From assembly GCF_964222135.1 (NCBI RefSeq), contig NZ_CAXQBR010000109.1, positions 1-64,000 of the forward strand: a stretch of 64,000 nt of DNA, given 5' to 3'. Source of the DNA: Euzebya sp. (GTDB lineage: Bacteria; Actinomycetota; Nitriliruptoria; Euzebyales; Euzebyaceae). Of this stretch, positions 6,150-17,185 are shown piece by piece (the stretch's first letter is position 1; each line of letters opens with the position of its first letter). The translations under genes and the position numbers were made by a program. A model generated the notes under the pieces. That model did no database searches and was not told the DNA's origin. It saw only the letters and a program-made list of their open reading frames with translations.

Positions 6150-6325
6150 ACCACGCCGGGACTCAGTTCACCCACCGCTCTTGCGCAACAGGACGGCCGT
6201 GCGACTCCCGCTCCTCCATCGGACCTACGAAGGGCGCGCGGATCCCTCCAGAGGTGATCGTCCTGCGCCAACTCGACGAGCGGCCATCGGCAGCGCGCGC
6301 CGGACCGGATCCCAGCCCATCCCAT

Positions 6326-6676
6326 TCAGAGCCAGTGGACCTGGTCCCGGAGGTGGTCGTCGGGAAGGTCGAGCAGCGGGCGCAGCGCGTCGACGAACCG
6401 GCCGGTCGTGTCGGCCGTCCGCGGCCACCGCGCATCGTCGGTGAAGATCAGCCCGGCGTGCGACCGACCCCCTGCCGCCCACCCCTGGGCGATCACGACG
6501 AAGTCCCTGACGTTGTTCGTCATCAGCACCCGCCCCTCGGACGTGCAGTGATCGAGGAGCGCCTCATCGTGAAGGGTGTGCCAACCGCGCTGGTGCGCCG
6601 TGACCACGTCGAAGCCGTCCTCGACGAGCCGTGTGGCCAGCATGACGGGGAAGTGGTGGTCGAGGCAGAGCCTCAC
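6326..6676 (-). CDS. DUF5615 PIN-like toxin, copy 1
   Basis: 116 residues starting at the GTG at 6676, which overlaps the antitoxin stop as GTGA; the longer frame to 6703 would lie inside the antitoxin gene. DUF5615 proteins are small PIN-like presumed nucleases paired with DUF433 proteins. Visible family features are an acidic residue near the start (LCLDHHFP), DEALLDHC in the middle and MTNNVRDF, where the Asp and Asn fit the PIN-like metal site. The product is expected to be a cytoplasmic RNase-type toxin neutralised by the upstream-encoded partner; RNase activity is family inference. Highly similar to the gene at 9918-10268. Confidence 0.8.
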   Translation of the reverse strand: MRLCLDHHFPVMLATRLVEDGFDVVTAHQRGWHTLHDEALLDHCTSEGRVLMTNNVRDFVVIAQGWAAGGRSHAGLIFTDDARWPRTADTTGRFVDALRPLLDLPDDHLRDQVHWL

Positions 6677-7098
6677 GCCAGCAGCTGACGCTGGTGCTCC
6701 CAACGACGGCGCTGCCGCTCCGCGAAGGCTGTCGCCTCCTCCATGGCCTGGTCGATCTCCTCGGTGAAGTCGCTGTAGTAGGCGACCGCGGCCTCAACCA
6801 GTGGCACGGCGATGTCGAAGTACCCCGCGGTCTGCGCCAGGTCGCCGTGATGTTCCCGGGCGGTGTGGATCACGTCGCGGACCTTCAGGCGGGTGCCGAC
6901 CAGGTGCGGCTCGCGATCACCGGACGCGCCGGTGCGGAACTGGATCAGCGGGTGCTCGAGCGCGCGCAGCCCCTCCAAGAGCAGACGGTCAGCGAGTGCG
7001 TTGGCCGACTCTGCCCCTCGGGCCGCCTCGGCTTCGAGCCGGTCGGCGGTCTCCTGCCGCAGGCGCAGGGTCCGCTGGATGGGCTTCTGATCCGACAT
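6673..7098 (-). CDS. DUF433 antitoxin, copy 1
   Basis: 141 residues. The N-terminal 50 residues resemble a ribbon-helix-helix-like segment (RTLRLRQETADRLEAEA), and about 55-125 form a DUF433 domain (HLVGTRLKVRDVI, then VPLVEAAVAYYSDF). DUF433 proteins are the usual antitoxins of DUF5615 PIN-like toxins. The toxin gene overlaps its stop by four bases, so translation is coupled and the antitoxin is made first. A TACACT box seven bases before the ATG suggests a leaderless message. The second copy at 10265-10690 differs by a modest number of substitutions, mainly around residues 26-30 (ARGAES against GRTQES). Confidence 0.8.
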   Translation of the reverse strand: MSDQKPIQRTLRLRQETADRLEAEAARGAESANALADRLLLEGLRALEHPLIQFRTGASGDREPHLVGTRLKVRDVIHTAREHHGDLAQTAGYFDIAVPLVEAAVAYYSDFTEEIDQAMEEATAFAERQRRRWEHQRQLLA

Positions 7099-7105
7099 GC
7101 ACCAC

Positions 7106-7111
7106 AGTGTA
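7106..7111 (-). promoter_or_regulatory. Candidate -10 box of toxin-antitoxin copy 1
   Basis: On the minus strand TACACT (TAnnnT type) ends seven bases before the antitoxin ATG, the spacing typical of leaderless actinobacterial genes. The box and its flanks are conserved in the second copy, while no -35 consensus is seen. Confidence 0.45.
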
Positions 7112-7125
7112 GGCGCATGCAGTCA

Positions 7126-8667
7126 TCAGACCGACGTGGGTACTGGATCCGAAGTCGCTCCCGCCCACTCGATCTGGACGTCGGTCGGGTCGAACCCAGG
7201 TCCCTGGCGGGTCGGCATCAGGGAGACGGAGAGTCCCAGCACCTCCAGCACCCGCCGACGCCCGCGCACGTCGAGACGGGCCCACGCCGCTTCCACGTCC
7301 GCACTGCCCAGGAGGTCGCGCAGGGGCTTGGGATCCGGAGTGGCGTAGGTGCGCAGCGCCTTGCGCTCGGCGGTCTCCATCTGCGGGCGAAGCCGCATGG
7401 AGATCTCGCGGAGCTGCTGCCGGTCGATGATCCCCTCGGCGTAGTCCACTGCCGCGGCGTCGAGTCGCCTTCTGAGGTCCTCGGCGATCCGCCGGTGGTC
7501 CTCTGCGCCCGTTCGCCGCCGGGTGGCCGTCAGGTCGGGGAGCTCGGCGTCGGGCGCCCTGAGGCGGGCGATCACGACCTGGCCGACGAGGTCGTCGACC
7601 GAGGGTTCGTCGCGGCTGGTGCAGCCCTTCGCTTCACAGGTGTAGAGCGTCCGATCGACGGTCTTGCCGGTCCGCTTGCGGTGGTAGCGCCAGGACTTGA
7701 CCCGCAGATCCGCACCGCACACCCCGCAACGGCCGATCCCGTAGGTCAGCAGGTGAGCCCGCCGGTTGCTGGCGACCGTGGTCCGGCGCGTGTTGCTCGT
7801 CAGGAGCGCGACCACCTCGCGATGCTGCTCCTCGTCGATGATCGCGGGCCAGGCGGCGTCCCCGATGACGCACGCCTCGGTGCACGGGCCGCTGTGCCGC
7901 GGAGCGCGGCGACCGTGCCGGTCCCGCTTGAGCCCGTGGTGGACGCGCTTGGCGACGTTCGCAGGACGCAACGCGAGCTTGCGCACCGTACCCGCACGCC
8001 ACCGCACCCCCTCACGCCCAGACGGCACGAGGATGCCGCGACGGTTGAAGTCCTCGGCGATGCCCTTCATCGAGTCTCCGCCGATGATCCGATCGACCAG
8101 ATCGCGGACGACGTCGGCCTGGTCGGGATCTTCGACGTCCCGGAACGACACCTGCCGGCCCTCGCCGTCGAGGATGGGCTCACGCCGCCAGCCGTAGAGC
8201 ACCGGTCCTGACGCGCGCCCTTCCTGCGCGCGTTGCAGGGCGGCCCTGGCGACGCGCTCCCCCTTGATGGCGGACTCCGCGGTGTCGAACTCGCCCAGGA
8301 TGCCCGCGACCATCCGGCCCGAGGCGCTCGCCAGTTCGAGCTCAGGACCGGACACCGCCGCGACGGAGATCCGCCGATCCGCGAGCAGGTCCATCGCCTC
8401 GGCCCGCTCCCGCCGGGACCGCCACAGCCGGGACGTCATGTAGACCACGATCCGGTCGAACTCGCCGGCAGCCGCCGACTCCATCAGGGCGGTGTACCCG
8501 GCCCTGGTCGCGCCGGAGTAGGCGCTGACGTCGTTGTCCGTCCACTCCCCCACCACCTGCCAGCCGCGCGCGTCGGCCAGGGCACGGGCGTCCTCGAGTT
8601 GGCGCTGGACGCCCTTCTCGGTGCCGTGCTCGTCCTGGGAGATGCGGGCGTACAGCGCCGCCCTCAT
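7126..8667 (-). CDS. Large serine recombinase / integrase
   Basis: 513 residues from the ATG at 8667 (MRAALYARIS); the longer frame adds an unlikely 22-residue extension. The N-terminal resolvase domain has the YARIS nucleophile motif (Ser10) and the conserved arginine region (RLWRSRRERAEA). It is followed by a recombinase domain (about 170-270, PF07508-like), a zinc ribbon (CGVCG at about 305, a second CxxxxxC around YTCEAKGC) and a long helical C-terminus. Such enzymes integrate and excise phages and conjugative elements. The 5' end lies about 60 bp from a broken MBL-fold gene, where an integrase gene next to its attachment site would be expected; the stop codon falls in the end of the toxin-antitoxin repeat. 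No excisionase is recognised. Confidence 0.88.
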   Translation of the reverse strand: MRAALYARISQDEHGTEKGVQRQLEDARALADARGWQVVGEWTDNDVSAYSGATRAGYTALMESAAAGEFDRIVVYMTSRLWRSRRERAEAMDLLADRRISVAAVSGPELELASASGRMVAGILGEFDTAESAIKGERVARAALQRAQEGRASGPVLYGWRREPILDGEGRQVSFRDVEDPDQADVVRDLVDRIIGGDSMKGIAEDFNRRGILVPSGREGVRWRAGTVRKLALRPANVAKRVHHGLKRDRHGRRAPRHSGPCTEACVIGDAAWPAIIDEEQHREVVALLTSNTRRTTVASNRRAHLLTYGIGRCGVCGADLRVKSWRYHRKRTGKTVDRTLYTCEAKGCTSRDEPSVDDLVGQVVIARLRAPDAELPDLTATRRRTGAEDHRRIAEDLRRRLDAAAVDYAEGIIDRQQLREISMRLRPQMETAERKALRTYATPDPKPLRDLLGSADVEAAWARLDVRGRRRVLEVLGLSVSLMPTRQGPGFDPTDVQIEWAGATSDPVPTSV

Positions 8668-8729
8668 GGCCGGATCCGCCCCGTTCGCATGGCGGGAGCA
8701 TATCACTTCTGGGGAGGGAATTTCCCCCC

Positions 8730-8918
8730 GCATTCCCGGGTGGGCCCGGGAACACCTTCGGGAACGCCAATGCGTTCGCCACGATCATGAACACCCTCGA
8801 CCAGCGCATCTTCGGCGTGCTGGACGACGAGACGTGGGTGTACCCAGGCCACGGGGACGACACGACGCTCGGCACCGAGCGACCCCACCTCGAGGAGTGG
8901 CGCGAGCGCGGCTGGTGA
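8730..8918 (+). pseudogene. 3' remnant of an MBL-fold hydrolase gene
   Basis: In frame from about 8730 to the stop at 8916-8918 the sequence reads AFPGGPGNTFGNANAF, then TWVYPGHGDDTTLG and ERPHLEEWRERGW. This is the C-terminal signature of a glyoxalase II-like metallo-beta-lactamase fold family (YPGHG..TTLG.E.PHL..W). The zinc-binding N-terminal half is absent and no start is available, so the gene is truncated. The break at about 8720-8735 lies 50-65 bp upstream of the serine recombinase start. The missing N-terminal half was not found anywhere to the left in this window. Confidence 0.75.
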
Positions 8919-9780: not shown

Positions 9781-9917
9781 TCGATGCAGGCCCGGACGAT
9801 CGGCCATGACCGACCGTCGAACCCGCTAGGCCACCCGCGTCCCCGTGTGAGATGTGATGCCCGCACCCTATCGGGGCGGACTCACCTGGCTCCCGGGTCG
9901 GATCCAGCCCATGCCGT

Positions 9918-10268
9918 TCAGAGCCAGTGGACCCGATCCCGGCGGTGGTCGTCGGGAAGGTCGAGCAGCGGGCGCAGCGCGTCGGTGAACCGTCCGGTCG
10001 TGTCGGCCGTCCGCGGCCATCGCGCGTCGTCGGTGAAGATCAGCCCGGCGTGCGATCGACCCTCCGCGGCCCACCGCTGGGCGATGACGACGACGTCCCT
10101 GACGTTGTTCGTCATCAGCACCCGTCCCTCGGCGGTGCAGTGATCGAGGAGCGCCTCGTCGGTGACGGTGTGCCAGCCGCGCTGGTGTGCCGTGACCACG
10201 TCGACGCCGTCCTCGACGAGCCGGTCGGCCAGCGCGCCGGGGAAGTGGTGGTCGAGGCAGAGCCTCAC
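9918..10268 (-). CDS. DUF5615 PIN-like toxin, copy 2
   Basis: 116 residues from the GTG at 10268, overlapping the antitoxin stop as GTGA. It keeps the family positions seen in copy 1: LCLDHHFP, DEALLDHC and MTNNVRDV (Val where copy 1 has Phe). Differences include PGALADRL for PVMLATRL and a few changes near the C-terminus (DDHRRDRVHWL). The reading frame is intact, so both copies may be functional. Presumed PIN-like nuclease toxin, neutralised by the adjacent DUF433 protein. Confidence 0.8.
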   Translation of the reverse strand: MRLCLDHHFPGALADRLVEDGVDVVTAHQRGWHTVTDEALLDHCTAEGRVLMTNNVRDVVVIAQRWAAEGRSHAGLIFTDDARWPRTADTTGRFTDALRPLLDLPDDHRRDRVHWL

Positions 10269-10690
10269 GCCAGCAGCTGACGCTGGTGCTCCCAACGACG
10301 GCGCTGCCGCTCCGCGAACGCCGTCGCCTCCTCCATGGCCTGGTCGATCTCCTCGCTGAAGTCGCTGTAGTAGGCGACCGCGGCCTCAACCAGCGGGACG
10401 GCGATGTCGAAGTACCCCGCGGTCTGCGCCAGGTCGCCGTGGTGTCCGCGGGCGGTGTGGATCACGTCGCGGACCTTCAGGCGGGTCCCGATCAGATGCG
10501 GTTCACGATCACCAGACGAACCGGTGCGGAACTGGATCAGCGGGTGCTCGAGCGCGCGCAGCCCCTCCAAGAGCAGACGGTCAGCGAGCGCGTTGGCCGA
10601 CTCCTGCGTCCTTCCGGCCTCGGCTTCGAGCCGGTCGGCGGTCTCCTGCCGAAGGCGCAACGTCCGCTGGACGGGCTTCTGATCAGACAT
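10265..10690 (-). CDS. DUF433 antitoxin, copy 2
   Basis: 141 residues, same layout as copy 1: ribbon-helix-helix-like start (RTLRLRQETADRLEAEAG), then a DUF433 domain. Intact and coupled to the toxin by a four-base overlap. The main divergence from copy 1 is around residues 26-30 and 56-66, which could affect pairing specificity. It remains to be seen whether this antitoxin can cross-neutralise the other toxin. The WYL-regulator gene ends about 230 bp further on, with an unusual symmetric repeat array between. Confidence 0.8.
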   Translation of the reverse strand: MSDQKPVQRTLRLRQETADRLEAEAGRTQESANALADRLLLEGLRALEHPLIQFRTGSSGDREPHLIGTRLKVRDVIHTARGHHGDLAQTAGYFDIAVPLVEAAVAYYSDFSEEIDQAMEEATAFAERQRRRWEHQRQLLA

Positions 10691-10697
10691 GAACCAC

Positions 10698-10703
10698 AGT
10701 GTA
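10698..10703 (-). promoter_or_regulatory. Candidate -10 box of toxin-antitoxin copy 2
   Basis: Minus-strand TACACT seven bases before the antitoxin ATG, conserved with copy 1 and placed for a leaderless transcript. Confidence 0.45.
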
Positions 10704-10757
10704 GGCGCATGCAGTCATCACACCGATGCGGGGAATCCGACCGATCTTCACGGCCAA

Positions 10758-12962: not shown

Positions 12963-13006
12963 TTCCGAGGGTTCTCTGAGGATCGGCGGCGGTGCGTCTG
13001 AGGTCG
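12963..13006 (+). promoter_or_regulatory. Candidate OmpR-type operator of the YceI-kinase-regulator operon
   Basis: Direct repeats GAGGGTT (12967), GAGGATC (12978) and GAGGTCG (13000) are spaced 11 and 22 bases, the phasing used by OmpR/PhoB-family regulators. The first two lie in a 24-bp block (12963-12986) that recurs with four mismatches at 16124-16147, upstream of the dioxygenase gene. The local regulator at 15413 is of this family, so autoregulation is likely. Confidence 0.55.
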
Positions 13007-13072
13007 CGAGCGGAGCATGCGTGCCATCCCACCGGCGCGCCACGCGCCACCGCCCCCGGAGAGGACCCCGCC

Positions 13073-13861
13073 ATGCCCACCGCGACCCCCACCCGCCCCA
13101 CACCCACCGCCGACCCGCACCCGGACCGCCCACGCCGATCGATCGCCAGGCTCCTCGTCGCCGTCGCCGTGGTCTTGACCCTCCTGGCCAGCGGCATCGC
13201 CTGGTACCTGTTCCGTCCCGCGCCCGATGCAGTCGACATCCAGGCGGCCGTCGACGGTACCACCGAGACGTCCGGCGACACTGCGGCCGCCACCGCGTCG
13301 GCCGACGTCAGCGGCACCTGGGCGGTGGACACGACTGTCGCCACGTTCTCGGTCACCGACACCACCGGGACCTTCGTCGGGTTCCGGGTCGCCGAGGAGC
13401 TCGCCAACCTCGGGGCGGTGGAGGCCGTGGGCCGCACCCCGGAGGTGACCGGCACCGTCACCCTCGACGGGACCACGCTGACCGCCGGGGAGATCACCGC
13501 CGACCTCACGGCGATGGTCAGCGACGAGTCCCGCCGCGAGGACGCCATCCAGGAGGCGCTGGGGACCAGCACCTCCCCCACCGCGACGTTCACCGTCACC
13601 GAAGCCGTCGACCTGGGCTCGGACCTGTCCGACGGCCAGGTCGTCGACGTGACCGTGCCCGGCACCCTCACCGTCAACGGCGTCTCCCGAACCGTCGACG
13701 TCACCATGCAGGTCGTGCGCTCGGGCGAGACGGTGGTGGTCACCGGCACGACCCCGGTCACCTTCGCCGACTTCGACGTCGCGACCCCCACCTCACCCAT
13801 CGTGGTCTCCCTCGACGACGCCGGGACGATCGAGTTCCAGCTCTACCTCACCAGGGCCTGA
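13073..13861 (+). CDS. Membrane-anchored YceI-domain protein
   Basis: 262 residues from the ATG at 13073. A Pro/Thr-rich cytoplasmic tail of about 24 residues is followed by one membrane helix (about 25-48, LLVAVAVVLTLLASGIAWYL) and an extracytoplasmic YceI-like domain (PF04264): SGTWAVDTTVATFSV, FVGFRVAEEL, GTLTVNGVSRTVDV and FADFDV are typical positions. YceI proteins are lipocalin-like and bind long hydrophobic molecules such as polyisoprenoids. It is the first gene of a probable operon with the histidine kinase and regulator that follow, so it may bind or signal the same lipophilic stimulus (inference). Confidence 0.85.
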   Translation: MPTATPTRPTPTADPHPDRPRRSIARLLVAVAVVLTLLASGIAWYLFRPAPDAVDIQAAVDGTTETSGDTAAATASADVSGTWAVDTTVATFSVTDTTGTFVGFRVAEELANLGAVEAVGRTPEVTGTVTLDGTTLTAGEITADLTAMVSDESRREDAIQEALGTSTSPTATFTVTEAVDLGSDLSDGQVVDVTVPGTLTVNGVSRTVDVTMQVVRSGETVVVTGTTPVTFADFDVATPTSPIVVSLDDAGTIEFQLYLTRA

Positions 13862-13923
13862 TCACCGCGCCGGCTGGGCCACCCGGGGTCCGGCCGGCGC
13901 TCGACGGCCATGATGGAGCCACC

Positions 13924-15420
13924 GTGAGCCTCCGCCTCCGCCTCGTCGCCGCCCTGGTGGTCCTGCTGGCCGTTGGGATCGCCGGGTACGGCGCGGTCAC
14001 CTACCGGGCGTTCGCCGACCGGGAGCTCGCGGGGCTGGACACCGACATCCGGAGCGCCATCCCGGCGCTCGCCCGCCAGCTGGACGTGGCGGCCGGACGC
14101 CACGTCGACGTGCCGGTCCCCGGTCCCGACGCAGACGGGACCAGGCCCGACGGCGAGAGCCCACGACCGGAGGGCGCGCCCGGCGGGGTGGCCGGCATCG
14201 TGCAGCCCGACGTCCCGCGCGGCACGTACGCCGAGCTCCGCGACCCCCGAGGCGAGGTCCTCGTCACCCGCACCCCGACGGGTGACGACCGGCCTGACCT
14301 GCGCGACGTCCCGATCCCGGCGGCGGGCTTCGAGATCCGCACCGCCCCTGGCGCCGACGGGGACGGGGACCGCTGGCGGGTCGTGGTGGAGCGCCGCCCG
14401 GACGAGACCGTGCTCGTCGCCGCCGCGCCGATGGGCGCACTCGACCGGGCGCTGCGGGGCCTCCTGCTGATCGAGGTCGTCGGCGGTCTCGGGCTGGTCG
14501 TGCTGCTCGGCGGTGGGGCGTGGACCATCCTGCGCAGGGGTCTGCGACCGCTCGACCGCATCGCCGACACCGCGGCGTCGATCACGGCCGGCAGCCTCGA
14601 CCAGCGCGTGCCCACCGCCCCGGGCGAGCCGACCGAGACCCGCCAGGTCGCCACCGCCATCAACGGGATGCTCGACGACCTCTCCCGGGCCTTCGCAGAA
14701 CGGCAGGCCACCGAGGCGAAGCTCCGCCGCTTCGTCGCCGACGCCTCCCACGAGCTGCGCACCCCCCTCACGTCCATCCAGGGCTACGCCGAGCTGTTCC
14801 GCATCGGCGCCGACTCCCAACACGTCGACACCCCCACGATCCTGCGGCGGGTCGAGGAGGAGGCCGGACGGATGCGCCACCTGGTCGAGGACCTCCTCAC
14901 CCTCGCCCGGCTCGACGAGCCGAGACCGCTCGACGTGGGACCCGTGGACCTCTCGATCATCGCCGCCGACGCCTGCAGCGACGCCGCCGCGCTGGACGCC
15001 TCCCGCGAGGTCACCCTCGACGTCCCCGGCCCGGTCGTCGTCACCGGGCAGGACCCGGCGCTCCGCCAGGCCGCCACCAACCTGCTGGCCAACGCCCTCC
15101 GCCACACCCCCGCCGGCACACCGGTCGAGGTCGCCACCGCCACGCGCGACGGCCACGGCACCCTCACCGTCACCGACCACGGCCCAGGCCTCTCGGCCGA
15201 GGGCGCCGCCCGGGCCTTCGACCGGTTCTGGCAGGCCGACGCGGCCCGCACGGGGCACGGCGCCGGCCTGGGCCTGTCCATCGTCCAAGCCGTCGCCCAG
15301 GCGCACGGCGGCCACGTCACCGCGGGCAACGCCGCGCACGGCGGCGCCACGTTCACCCTCGCCATCCCCCTCGTCGAACCCCCCGACGACGCCGACCCCG
15401 GAGCCGACCCCGATGTCTGA
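13924..15420 (+). CDS. Two-component sensor histidine kinase
   Basis: 498 residues from the GTG at 13924. Membrane helix 1 at about 5-26, an extracytoplasmic sensor region of about 150 residues, helix 2 at about 178-200, a HAMP linker (LRPLDRIADTAASITAG), the HisKA box with phosphoacceptor His276 (DASHELRTPLTSIQGY), and an ATPase domain with N (NLLANALRHTP), G1 (DHGPGLS) and G2 (GHGAGLGLSI) boxes. All catalytic motifs are intact. The stop overlaps the start of the response-regulator gene, so the two are coupled. The order kinase then regulator is less usual. Neighbouring YceI and dioxygenase genes suggest a lipophilic or aromatic stimulus, which is inference. Confidence 0.92.
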   Translation: MSLRLRLVAALVVLLAVGIAGYGAVTYRAFADRELAGLDTDIRSAIPALARQLDVAAGRHVDVPVPGPDADGTRPDGESPRPEGAPGGVAGIVQPDVPRGTYAELRDPRGEVLVTRTPTGDDRPDLRDVPIPAAGFEIRTAPGADGDGDRWRVVVERRPDETVLVAAAPMGALDRALRGLLLIEVVGGLGLVVLLGGGAWTILRRGLRPLDRIADTAASITAGSLDQRVPTAPGEPTETRQVATAINGMLDDLSRAFAERQATEAKLRRFVADASHELRTPLTSIQGYAELFRIGADSQHVDTPTILRRVEEEAGRMRHLVEDLLTLARLDEPRPLDVGPVDLSIIAADACSDAAALDASREVTLDVPGPVVVTGQDPALRQAATNLLANALRHTPAGTPVEVATATRDGHGTLTVTDHGPGLSAEGAARAFDRFWQADAARTGHGAGLGLSIVQAVAQAHGGHVTAGNAAHGGATFTLAIPLVEPPDDADPGADPDV

Positions 15421-16117
15421 GGCCCCCACCATCCTCACCGTCGACGACGAGGTGCACATCCGCGAGCTCGTGCGGATGGGGCTGGCCGTCCACGGCTACC
15501 ACGTCGTGGAGGCCGCCGACGGTCGCGGCGCGCTCGAGGCCCTCGCCGCCCACGAGCCCGACCTGGTCGTGCTCGACGTGATGATGCCGGGGTTGGACGG
15601 CTTCGAGGTGGCCCGGCGCATCCGGGCGGGCACCGGCCCCAGCCGGCAGGTGCCGATCATCTTCCTCACCGCCCGCGACGAGACCACCGACAAGGTGGCG
15701 GGGTTGCGACTGGGCAGCGACGACTACCTCACCAAGCCGTTCTCCATCGAGGAGCTCGCCGCCCGCGTGGACGCCGTGCTGCGCCGCAGCGGCCTGGCAG
15801 CCACCGCGACCGCCGACCGGCTCGAGGTCGCCGGACTGGTGCTGGACGACGCCACCCACGAGGTGTGGCGCGACGGCGAGCGGATCGACCTGACCGCCAC
15901 GGAGTTCCGGCTGCTGCACCACCTCATGCGCAGCTCCCCGCGGGTGGTGACCCGCGCGCAGATCCTCCACGCCGTCTGGGACTACTCGTTCACCTCCAAC
16001 GCGAGCGTCCTCGACACCTACATCAGCTACCTGCGCCAGAAGGTCGACGCCGGCCGCCCGGCCCTGATCCAGACCGTGCGCGGCGTCGGGTACTCCCTGC
16101 GGCCGCCGAGGGACTGA
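15413..16117 (+). CDS. OmpR-family response regulator
   Basis: 234 residues from the ATG at 15413, overlapping the kinase stop by eight bases. Receiver domain with acidic pair Asp11/Asp12, phosphoacceptor Asp55 (LVVLDVMMPG), switch Thr and Lys108 (LTKPF). C-terminal winged helix of the Trans_reg_C type (LTATEFRLLHHLMRSSPRVV, then VLDTYISYLRQKVD and VRGVGYSL). All expected residues are present. It should be phosphorylated by the kinase just upstream and bind 11-bp-phased direct repeats; such repeats occur before the operon (12967/12978/13000) and before the dioxygenase gene (16128/16139), which names its likely targets. Confidence 0.93.
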   Translation: MSEAPTILTVDDEVHIRELVRMGLAVHGYHVVEAADGRGALEALAAHEPDLVVLDVMMPGLDGFEVARRIRAGTGPSRQVPIIFLTARDETTDKVAGLRLGSDDYLTKPFSIEELAARVDAVLRRSGLAATATADRLEVAGLVLDDATHEVWRDGERIDLTATEFRLLHHLMRSSPRVVTRAQILHAVWDYSFTSNASVLDTYISYLRQKVDAGRPALIQTVRGVGYSLRPPRD

Positions 16118-16123
16118 ACCCGG

Positions 16124-16147
16124 TTCTGAGGGATCTCCGAGGATCGG
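16124..16147 (+). promoter_or_regulatory. Candidate OmpR-type operator of the dioxygenase gene
   Basis: GAGGGAT at 16128 and GAGGATC at 16139, 11 bases apart, in a 24-bp block nearly identical to 12963-12986. It starts seven bases after the regulator stop and 91 bases before the dioxygenase ATG. Confidence 0.55.
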
Positions 16148-16214: not shown

Positions 16215-17185
16215 ATGACCACACCCACCTACGAAGGCCGCCCCCTCGCCAACCCTGACGAGCCCGTCCAGGACCAGGGCCTCGCCTTCGACCTCGAGAC
16301 CCTCGCCGTCCGCCGCCGCAGCCGCCGTCAGGTCCTCCGAGCCCTCGGCATCGGTGCCGGGGCGGTCGCCCTCGGGGCGTGCAGCCCGTCCGGTTCGCTG
16401 ACGGAGGTCACCACGGAGCGCGCCACCGGCACCGGCGCCGCGGCGTGCGGCACGACGATCCCGCAGGAGACCGCCGGCCCCTACCCGGGCGACGGGTCGA
16501 ACGGCCCCGACGTGCTGGGCGAGTCCGGCATCGTCCGCCGCGACATCACGTCCAGCATCGGCGAGCTGTCGGGCAGCGCCAGCGGCGTGCCGTTCGAGAT
16601 CGAGATGTACATCGAGGACAGCGACGACGGGTGCGTCCCCTACGCCGGCGCCGCCGTCTACGTGTGGCACTGCGACGACCAGGGCCGCTACTCGCTGTAC
16701 TCCGAGGGCGTGACCGACCAGAACTGGCTCCGCGGCGTGCAGGCCGCCGACGCAGACGGGATCGTCCGCTCACCTCGGTGTTCCCCGGCTGCTACGCCGG
16801 CCGCTGGCCCCACATCCACTTCGAGGTCTTCCCGAGCCTCGACGCCGCCACCGACGTCGCCAACGCGATCGCCACCTCCCAGATCGCCATCCCCCAAGCC
16901 ATCTGCGAGGAGATCTACGGCGCCACGAGCGGCTACGAGCAGAGCACCCCCAACCTCTCCCAGCTGTCGCTCGAGACCGACGGCGTCTTCGGCGAGGACG
17001 CCGCCGCTCTGCAGCTCGGCACGATCACGGGCACCCCGGGCGATGGCCTCGCCATCCGCCTCGACGTCCCCGTCAGCGCCACCCCGGCGCCGGCTTCGGA
17101 GGGAGGCGGCGGTGCCCCGCCCGCCGGCGGTCCCGCGGGACCCGGAGGTCCAGGCGGCCCACCGGCCGGTGGTGCACCCGGCTGA
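16215..17185 (+). pseudogene. Frameshifted intradiol-dioxygenase-like Tat lipoprotein
   Basis: The first frame (16215 to about 16770) carries a twin-arginine signal with lipobox (RRRSRRQVLRALGIGAGAVA then LGAC) and the start of an intradiol ring-cleavage dioxygenase-like domain (ETAGPYPGDG, VYVWHCDDQGRYSLYS). The domain then continues in another frame (TSVFPGCYAGRWPHIHFEVF) to a glycine/proline-rich tail ending at 17185. One missing base near 16772 (the string CGCTCACC where CGCTTCACC is expected) joins them. The Tyr and His positions of the non-haem iron site (HCDD..GRY; WPHIHFEV) are all there, so without the frameshift this would be a full exported protein of about 323 residues. Natural pseudogene or single-base error cannot be told apart here. 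Confidence 0.75.

Follow-up and report, generated by a model that had tools for sequence, protein, structure and literature searches.

The response regulator PhoP of Mycobacterium tuberculosis occupies, as a tandem dimer, direct TCACAGC repeats whose spacer is always 4 bp, giving a period of 11 bp, and it has been reported to extend to trimers and tetramers on longer repeats (PMC4832192). A regulator of the same clade is encoded in a draft genome of Euzebya sp., on contig NZ_CAXQBR010000109.1, of which positions 1 to 64,000 (64,000 nucleotides, here called the window) were analysed. In this window a YceI-family gene, a sensor histidine kinase gene and a response regulator gene stand between two nearly identical 24-bp blocks, the second of which precedes a gene of the intradiol dioxygenase type. 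Sequence comparison indicates that the intervening regulator very probably binds at these two blocks. The locus shares with M. tuberculosis PhoPR (3R0J/5ED4) an OmpR-family regulator of the same clade, 7-bp half-sites arranged head to tail with an 11-bp period, and the position of the site before a putatively autoregulated operon. It differs in having TCYGAGG instead of TCACAGC, in having serine and aspartate at the places of N212 and E215, and in carrying a YceI gene inside the operon. It also has apparently two target sites only, whereas PhoPR has a large regulon.

Other described systems resemble parts of the locus. MprAB/HtrA and CutRS, which serve envelope and secretion stress in Actinobacteria, are OmpR-type systems tied to exported quality-control proteins, and the closest orthologue of the window regulator (genome G057) and others likewise adjoin HtrA. 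MprA and CutR were rejected as the family of the window regulator, their published motifs (TKTTAAGAAM for Corynebacterium glutamicum MprA, PMC12113857, and TAWATAAA for Streptomyces venezuelae CutR, PMC12802291) being unlike the window blocks. BcnA/LcoA of Burkholderia are stress-induced, lipocalin-like YceI-family proteins for which extracytoplasmic binding of lipophilic molecules has been proposed, but they are linked to cytochrome b561 and no two-component system or dioxygenase partner has been described (PMC9113575). Burkholderia relatives of YceI bind isoprenoids, among them ubiquinone-8, and give protection from antibiotics or lipid peroxyl radicals (PMC9113575, PMC5350466). In Ralstonia solanacearum, a member of another phylum, the yceI gene AVT05_RS03545 is induced by the phenolic compound methyl gallate and required for tolerance to it; the abstract mentions no linked regulator or dioxygenase (PMC8472277).

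YceI proteins are common and stress-induced, and their control in Actinobacteria appears to be undescribed in the open-access literature, where no full-text report of a YceI-linked actinobacterial two-component system was found. The locus represents an apparently undescribed small branch of the known PhoP family, with an uncommon half-site and a recurrent YceI/dioxygenase partnership, rather than a new kind of switch. The recurrent regulator-kinase-YceI(-dioxygenase) association together with a recognisable operator makes the regulon testable and offers a way towards the signal. A PhoP-DNA structure has been solved for this clade, and the change from C to G in the half-site makes a case study for how paralogous OmpR-type regulators separate their sites.

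The blocks and genes are arranged as follows:

12963..12986, plus strand: putative operator block 1, with two TCYGAGG half-sites (12964-12970 and 12975-12981) 11 bp apart
12997..13003, plus strand: third in-phase half-site, TCTGAGG, recognised from the sequence 22 bp beyond the second half-site
13073..13861, plus strand: membrane-anchored YceI-family protein, an N-terminal transmembrane segment followed by a YceI domain (Pfam PF04264, E 4.5e-16; 60 bits against a Pfam gathering cut-off of 23.7)
13924..15420, plus strand: sensor histidine kinase with GTG start, having an N-terminal hydrophobic segment, an extracytoplasmic stretch, HAMP, HisKA and HATPase_c
15413..16117, plus strand: OmpR/PhoP-clade response regulator, Response_reg and Trans_reg_C
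16124..16147, plus strand: putative operator block 2, with half-sites at 16125-16131 and 16136-16142, 11 bp apart
16215..17185, plus strand: intradiol-dioxygenase-type protein with a twin-arginine signal and lipobox (RRRSRRQVL...LGAC), matching catechol dioxygenase models, its frame broken

This order of YceI, kinase and regulator, followed by the dioxygenase from 16215, agrees with an earlier interpretation of the window, referred to here as the sequence-only reading. The kinase and regulator genes overlap by eight bases, the regulator start preceding the kinase stop. Both blocks are intergenic. Block 1 (TTCCGAGGGTTCTCTGAGGATCGG) lies between an alpha/beta-hydrolase gene and the YceI gene, 87-110 bp 5' of the YceI start, and block 2 (TTCTGAGGGATCTCCGAGGATCGG) lies between the end of the response-regulator gene (16117) and the dioxygenase-type gene, 68-91 bp 5' of the start of the latter (16215).

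The recurrence of the 24-bp block, described in the sequence-only reading with four mismatches, is confirmed by computation, but with three (21/24 identical), and the identity ends at the block boundaries. It is beyond chance, as 21/24 is the best 24-mer match between the two intergenic stretches and the score never exceeded 20 in 2000 dinucleotide shuffles. No 24-mer in the window besides the blocks themselves matches either of them at 18/24 or better. The 19-bp core TTCYGAGGGWTCTCYGAGG occurs twice in the 5.06-Mb genome (97.1% complete), and nothing else there comes within two mismatches of it; the seven further places among the matches listed all have three, and no place less than two mismatches from the core was found in 65 other genomes of the class. 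A genome scan, also suggested by the earlier interpretation, recovered the core at both blocks, but a larger regulon sought in this genome with relaxed patterns yielded no further convincing site. The half-site spacings (11 and 22 at block 1, 11 at block 2) stand as first described, while the half-site had been drawn too narrowly as GAGGxxx: its full form is TCYGAGG, a variant of TCNCAGS. GAGG-N7-GAGG alone was rejected as a signal because its count in the window is at or below chance (3 found, 6.3 expected). Since the bare pattern is no commoner than chance, the evidence is the longer 24-bp block and not the GAGG pairs.

The regulator is indeed of the OmpR type, as previously assigned, with a receiver domain (PF00072, 7.9e-30) and the winged helix of the OmpR/PhoB family (Trans_reg_C, PF00486, 2.1e-25). 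Its best solved relative in a phmmer search is M. tuberculosis PhoP (E 4e-63; 48% identity over 224 residues), followed by PrrA (3.5e-50) and MtrA (2.7e-45). When genome contigs were scanned with the regulator, generic OmpR hits dominated and little else emerged. In a tree of 65 regulators PhoP nests among the homologues of the phylum and the same-genus paralogues fall outside the clade (support 99/93), and the window regulator pairs with the orthologue from G057 (66%; 100/93), the two being sister to all the others. The base-contacting residues V213, Y217 and Y220 of PhoP are kept in the window regulator, and N212S, E215D and S216T are changed. Compared with the PhoP half-site, the 11-bp spacing is equal and T, C, A and G are shared, the fourth base being G for C. 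A single recognition-helix residue was considered as the cause of this G and rejected, because N212S and E215D both occur with boxes that have C at that position (C-type).

The same class of box is found by computation across the phylum. Of 58 homologous regulators, 29 have YTCNSAGS-N3-YTCNSAGS (score at least 18.5) 10-150 bp 5' of the start, where dinucleotide shuffles predict 0.11 and background density about 0.2, and neither the reversed sequence nor kinase coding sequence of the same length contained a box. The box class is conserved, and the window holds a variant of TCNCAGS with a rare GAGG half-site. In six of the 29 promoters TANNNT follows exactly nine bases 3' of the box, compared with three at all other offsets combined, a layout that suggests an activator standing in for the -35 element.

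The association of genes is also recurrent. YceI adjoins a homologous two-component system in eight further genomes besides the window, located 3' of the kinase in G160, G296, G238, G088 and G333, 5' of the regulator in G173 and G100, and divergently in G227. Two of these genomes (G160 and G296) were fetched for closeness of regulator and dioxygenase and the other six for regulator or YceI alone. The clusters in G160 and G296 run regulator-kinase-YceI-dioxygenase, with the dioxygenase gene after YceI, and because this differs from the order YceI-kinase-regulator-dioxygenase in the window, the association has outlived rearrangement. Boxes precede YceI in G296 (score 20), G333 (18.5) and G088 (17.5), and G227 has one box before the divergent YceI (18.5) and another before the regulator (20). 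Where no such system adjoins YceI, a box still precedes 6 of 21 YceI genes (0.59 expected, P about 4e-5). In G077, where a YceI gene is boxed as well, a box of three half-sites precedes the unlinked dioxygenase (18.5; 0/300 shuffles); other dioxygenases have weak boxes (G331, G213 and G237, p about 0.02-0.03) or none.

The place of YceI can be occupied by other partners, identified by eye from translations: HtrA-like proteases in G057, G182 and G123, and elsewhere an ABC-type permease, a glycosyltransferase and others. HtrA-like protease genes replace YceI beside the same clade of two-component system at loci L137, L250 and L296. Judged by eye, these HtrA neighbours link the PhoP-clade system to envelope quality control.

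Given these comparisons, the blocks are likely operators of the intervening regulator, controlling an autoregulated YceI-kinase-regulator operon and an exported dioxygenase with envelope protection as the output. An extracytoplasmic signal would activate the kinase, and the phosphorylated regulator would then sit on each block as a dimer in head-to-tail arrangement, with every TCYGAGG half-site taken by one subunit. The subunits would be 11 bp, one helical turn, apart, like M. tuberculosis PhoP on TCACAGC-N4-TCACAGC. Through block 1 the regulator would control the YceI-kinase-regulator operon, combining autoregulation with induction of the lipocalin-like YceI, and through block 2 it would control the exported dioxygenase. 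Envelope protection would be the most likely output, with a lipophilic or quinone-like molecule held by YceI at the membrane and catechol-like compounds attacked by the dioxygenase outside the cell. In this account the blocks, their uniqueness, the conserved box class and the recurrent gene association come from computation, and we infer the binding, a positive direction of control, the signal and the enzyme substrate.

The compact autoregulated regulon of YceI, kinase, regulator and exported dioxygenase, which was the central proposal of the sequence-only reading, is well supported by inference. An 11-bp tandem box stands before regulators of the clade across the phylum and before YceI genes both linked and unlinked, and the gene association recurs. 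The lipophilic aromatic signal proposed with it is speculation; the HtrA neighbours and the kinship with PhoP point as much to envelope stress. On these two grounds a general envelope stress signal appears equally possible, being at least as likely as a phenolic or quinone signal, which YceI relatives that bind ubiquinone-8 or respond to methyl gallate make possible. It is conceivable, but doubtful, that the locus exemplifies a widespread, undescribed actinobacterial module in which a PhoP-clade two-component system controls a membrane-anchored YceI lipocalin and an exported intradiol dioxygenase, which together would form a dedicated envelope defence against phenolic or quinone-type compounds, and in which the operator of one lineage changed from CAGS to GAGG, so that its site became separate from those of paralogues.

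Several observations weigh against the assignment of the blocks to this regulator and of the four genes to one regulon. Relative to homologues the dioxygenase frame has a net -1 shift at about 16767-16777, 5' of the GRxPHIH iron-ligand motif. The earlier description of an exported enzyme stands as far as the signal is concerned, because the twin-arginine signal (TIGR01409 match) is followed by an LGAC lipobox and the protein is probably an exported lipoprotein, but the reading frame is not intact as sequenced. The N-terminal piece reaches 20.3 bits with Dioxygenase_C (cut-off 27.3) and the C-terminal piece has no match, the frameshift lying between them, and GCYAGRWPHIHFEV, downstream of the shift, carries the histidine iron ligands of the dioxygenase. 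Homologues read in one frame across this region, and because those from G077 and G160 pass the Dioxygenase_C cut-off, the predicted kinship with intradiol ring-cleavage dioxygenases holds although the sequenced copy is broken. The shift is either an assembly error or the mark of a young pseudogene, the fault being in the draft assembly or in the gene, and the dioxygenase as sequenced may be non-functional. At the level of the box, 28 of the 29 boxes have C in both half-sites where the window has G, the exception being G238, whose operator alone has a comparable G. Residues of the recognition helix differ from those of PhoP (N212 to S, E215 to D), yet regulators with S or D at those places keep C-type boxes, so there is no simple residue-base code. 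No recognisable -10 element (TANNNT) follows either window block at the box +9 nt position where six homologues have one. The box scoring scheme was fixed after some homologue sites had already been seen; this is of no consequence, given how far the controls fall below the observed count. The closest orthologue (66%, G057) belongs to an HtrA-kinase-regulator operon without a convincing block upstream, the YceI genes of the congeners lie apart from this system and lack the GAGG block, and the only box at the YceI gene of G001 is of the C-type and lies on the other strand. The YceI-linked regulators do not form one clade in the tree of 65 regulators, and a single origin for them was rejected.

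It would be quite improbable for the blocks to serve as operators for another OmpR-family regulator encoded in this genome, with the intervening regulator there by coincidence. The genome has many OmpR-type regulators, and the half-site is one base off the clade consensus in a way that no single recognition-helix change explains. One block, however, precedes the regulator's own operon, as in the autoregulated clade (29/58), and YceI and the dioxygenase under the box are recurrent partners of this two-component system. The boxes of the two paralogues checked in this genome are other sequences (GTGAA-N6-GTGAA and CCTCAGG...), and because these upstream sequences differ, the GAGG blocks are no general feature. 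The direct repeats are about 3.16 kb apart, with a serine recombinase and a larger duplication nearby, which could indicate chance or a structural repeat around the operon, such as a recombination relic or the footprint of a mobile element. This is highly improbable considering that 0/2000 shuffles were as good, that identity ends at the 24-bp block, and that other genomes have boxes of this class at equivalent positions.

The operators might also be real while the regulator is a repressor or the block before the dioxygenase a relic, the dioxygenase gene being a decaying pseudogene, leaving only YceI-kinase-regulator as the working regulon. The one-base frameshift before the iron-ligand motif and the lack of a recognisable -10 after either block are in line with this. 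Block 2 is nevertheless as intact as block 1, and apart from the shift the dioxygenase coding sequence before and after it is well conserved, as would be expected of a recent lesion or of an assembly error in a draft of 111 contigs. The alternative of a repressor or a relic is rather unlikely.

Some further features were noted in the same material. In the G057 genome, positions 1832-1850 (L174, G057:C288) read CCCCGAGGGTTCTCCGAGG. This sequence differs from the window core at two positions and stands about 240 bp ahead of a secreted DUF3179-like gene (by eye) and 46 bp from a divergent ABC-transporter gene. It is either a target or chance, and it was set aside as evidence since such matches arise by chance. 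Upstream of one paralogous OmpR-type regulator a different direct repeat with an 11-bp period, GTGAA-N6-GTGAA (in congeners ATGAA), is conserved in 4/4 genomes of the genus (L338 in G000:C41, L339, L342 and L343) and constitutes a separate operator family. Within the window about 830 bp are duplicated (6312-7140 and 9904-10732, 91-92% in the aligned parts, constant offset 3592). The duplication includes a DUF5615 gene of the PIN-like toxin type (9918-10295, minus strand) and a small upstream partner gene (10265-10690, minus strand). A large serine recombinase (7126-8733, minus strand) starts at one of the copies, and the arrangement looks like a toxin-antitoxin pair doubled around the recombinase.

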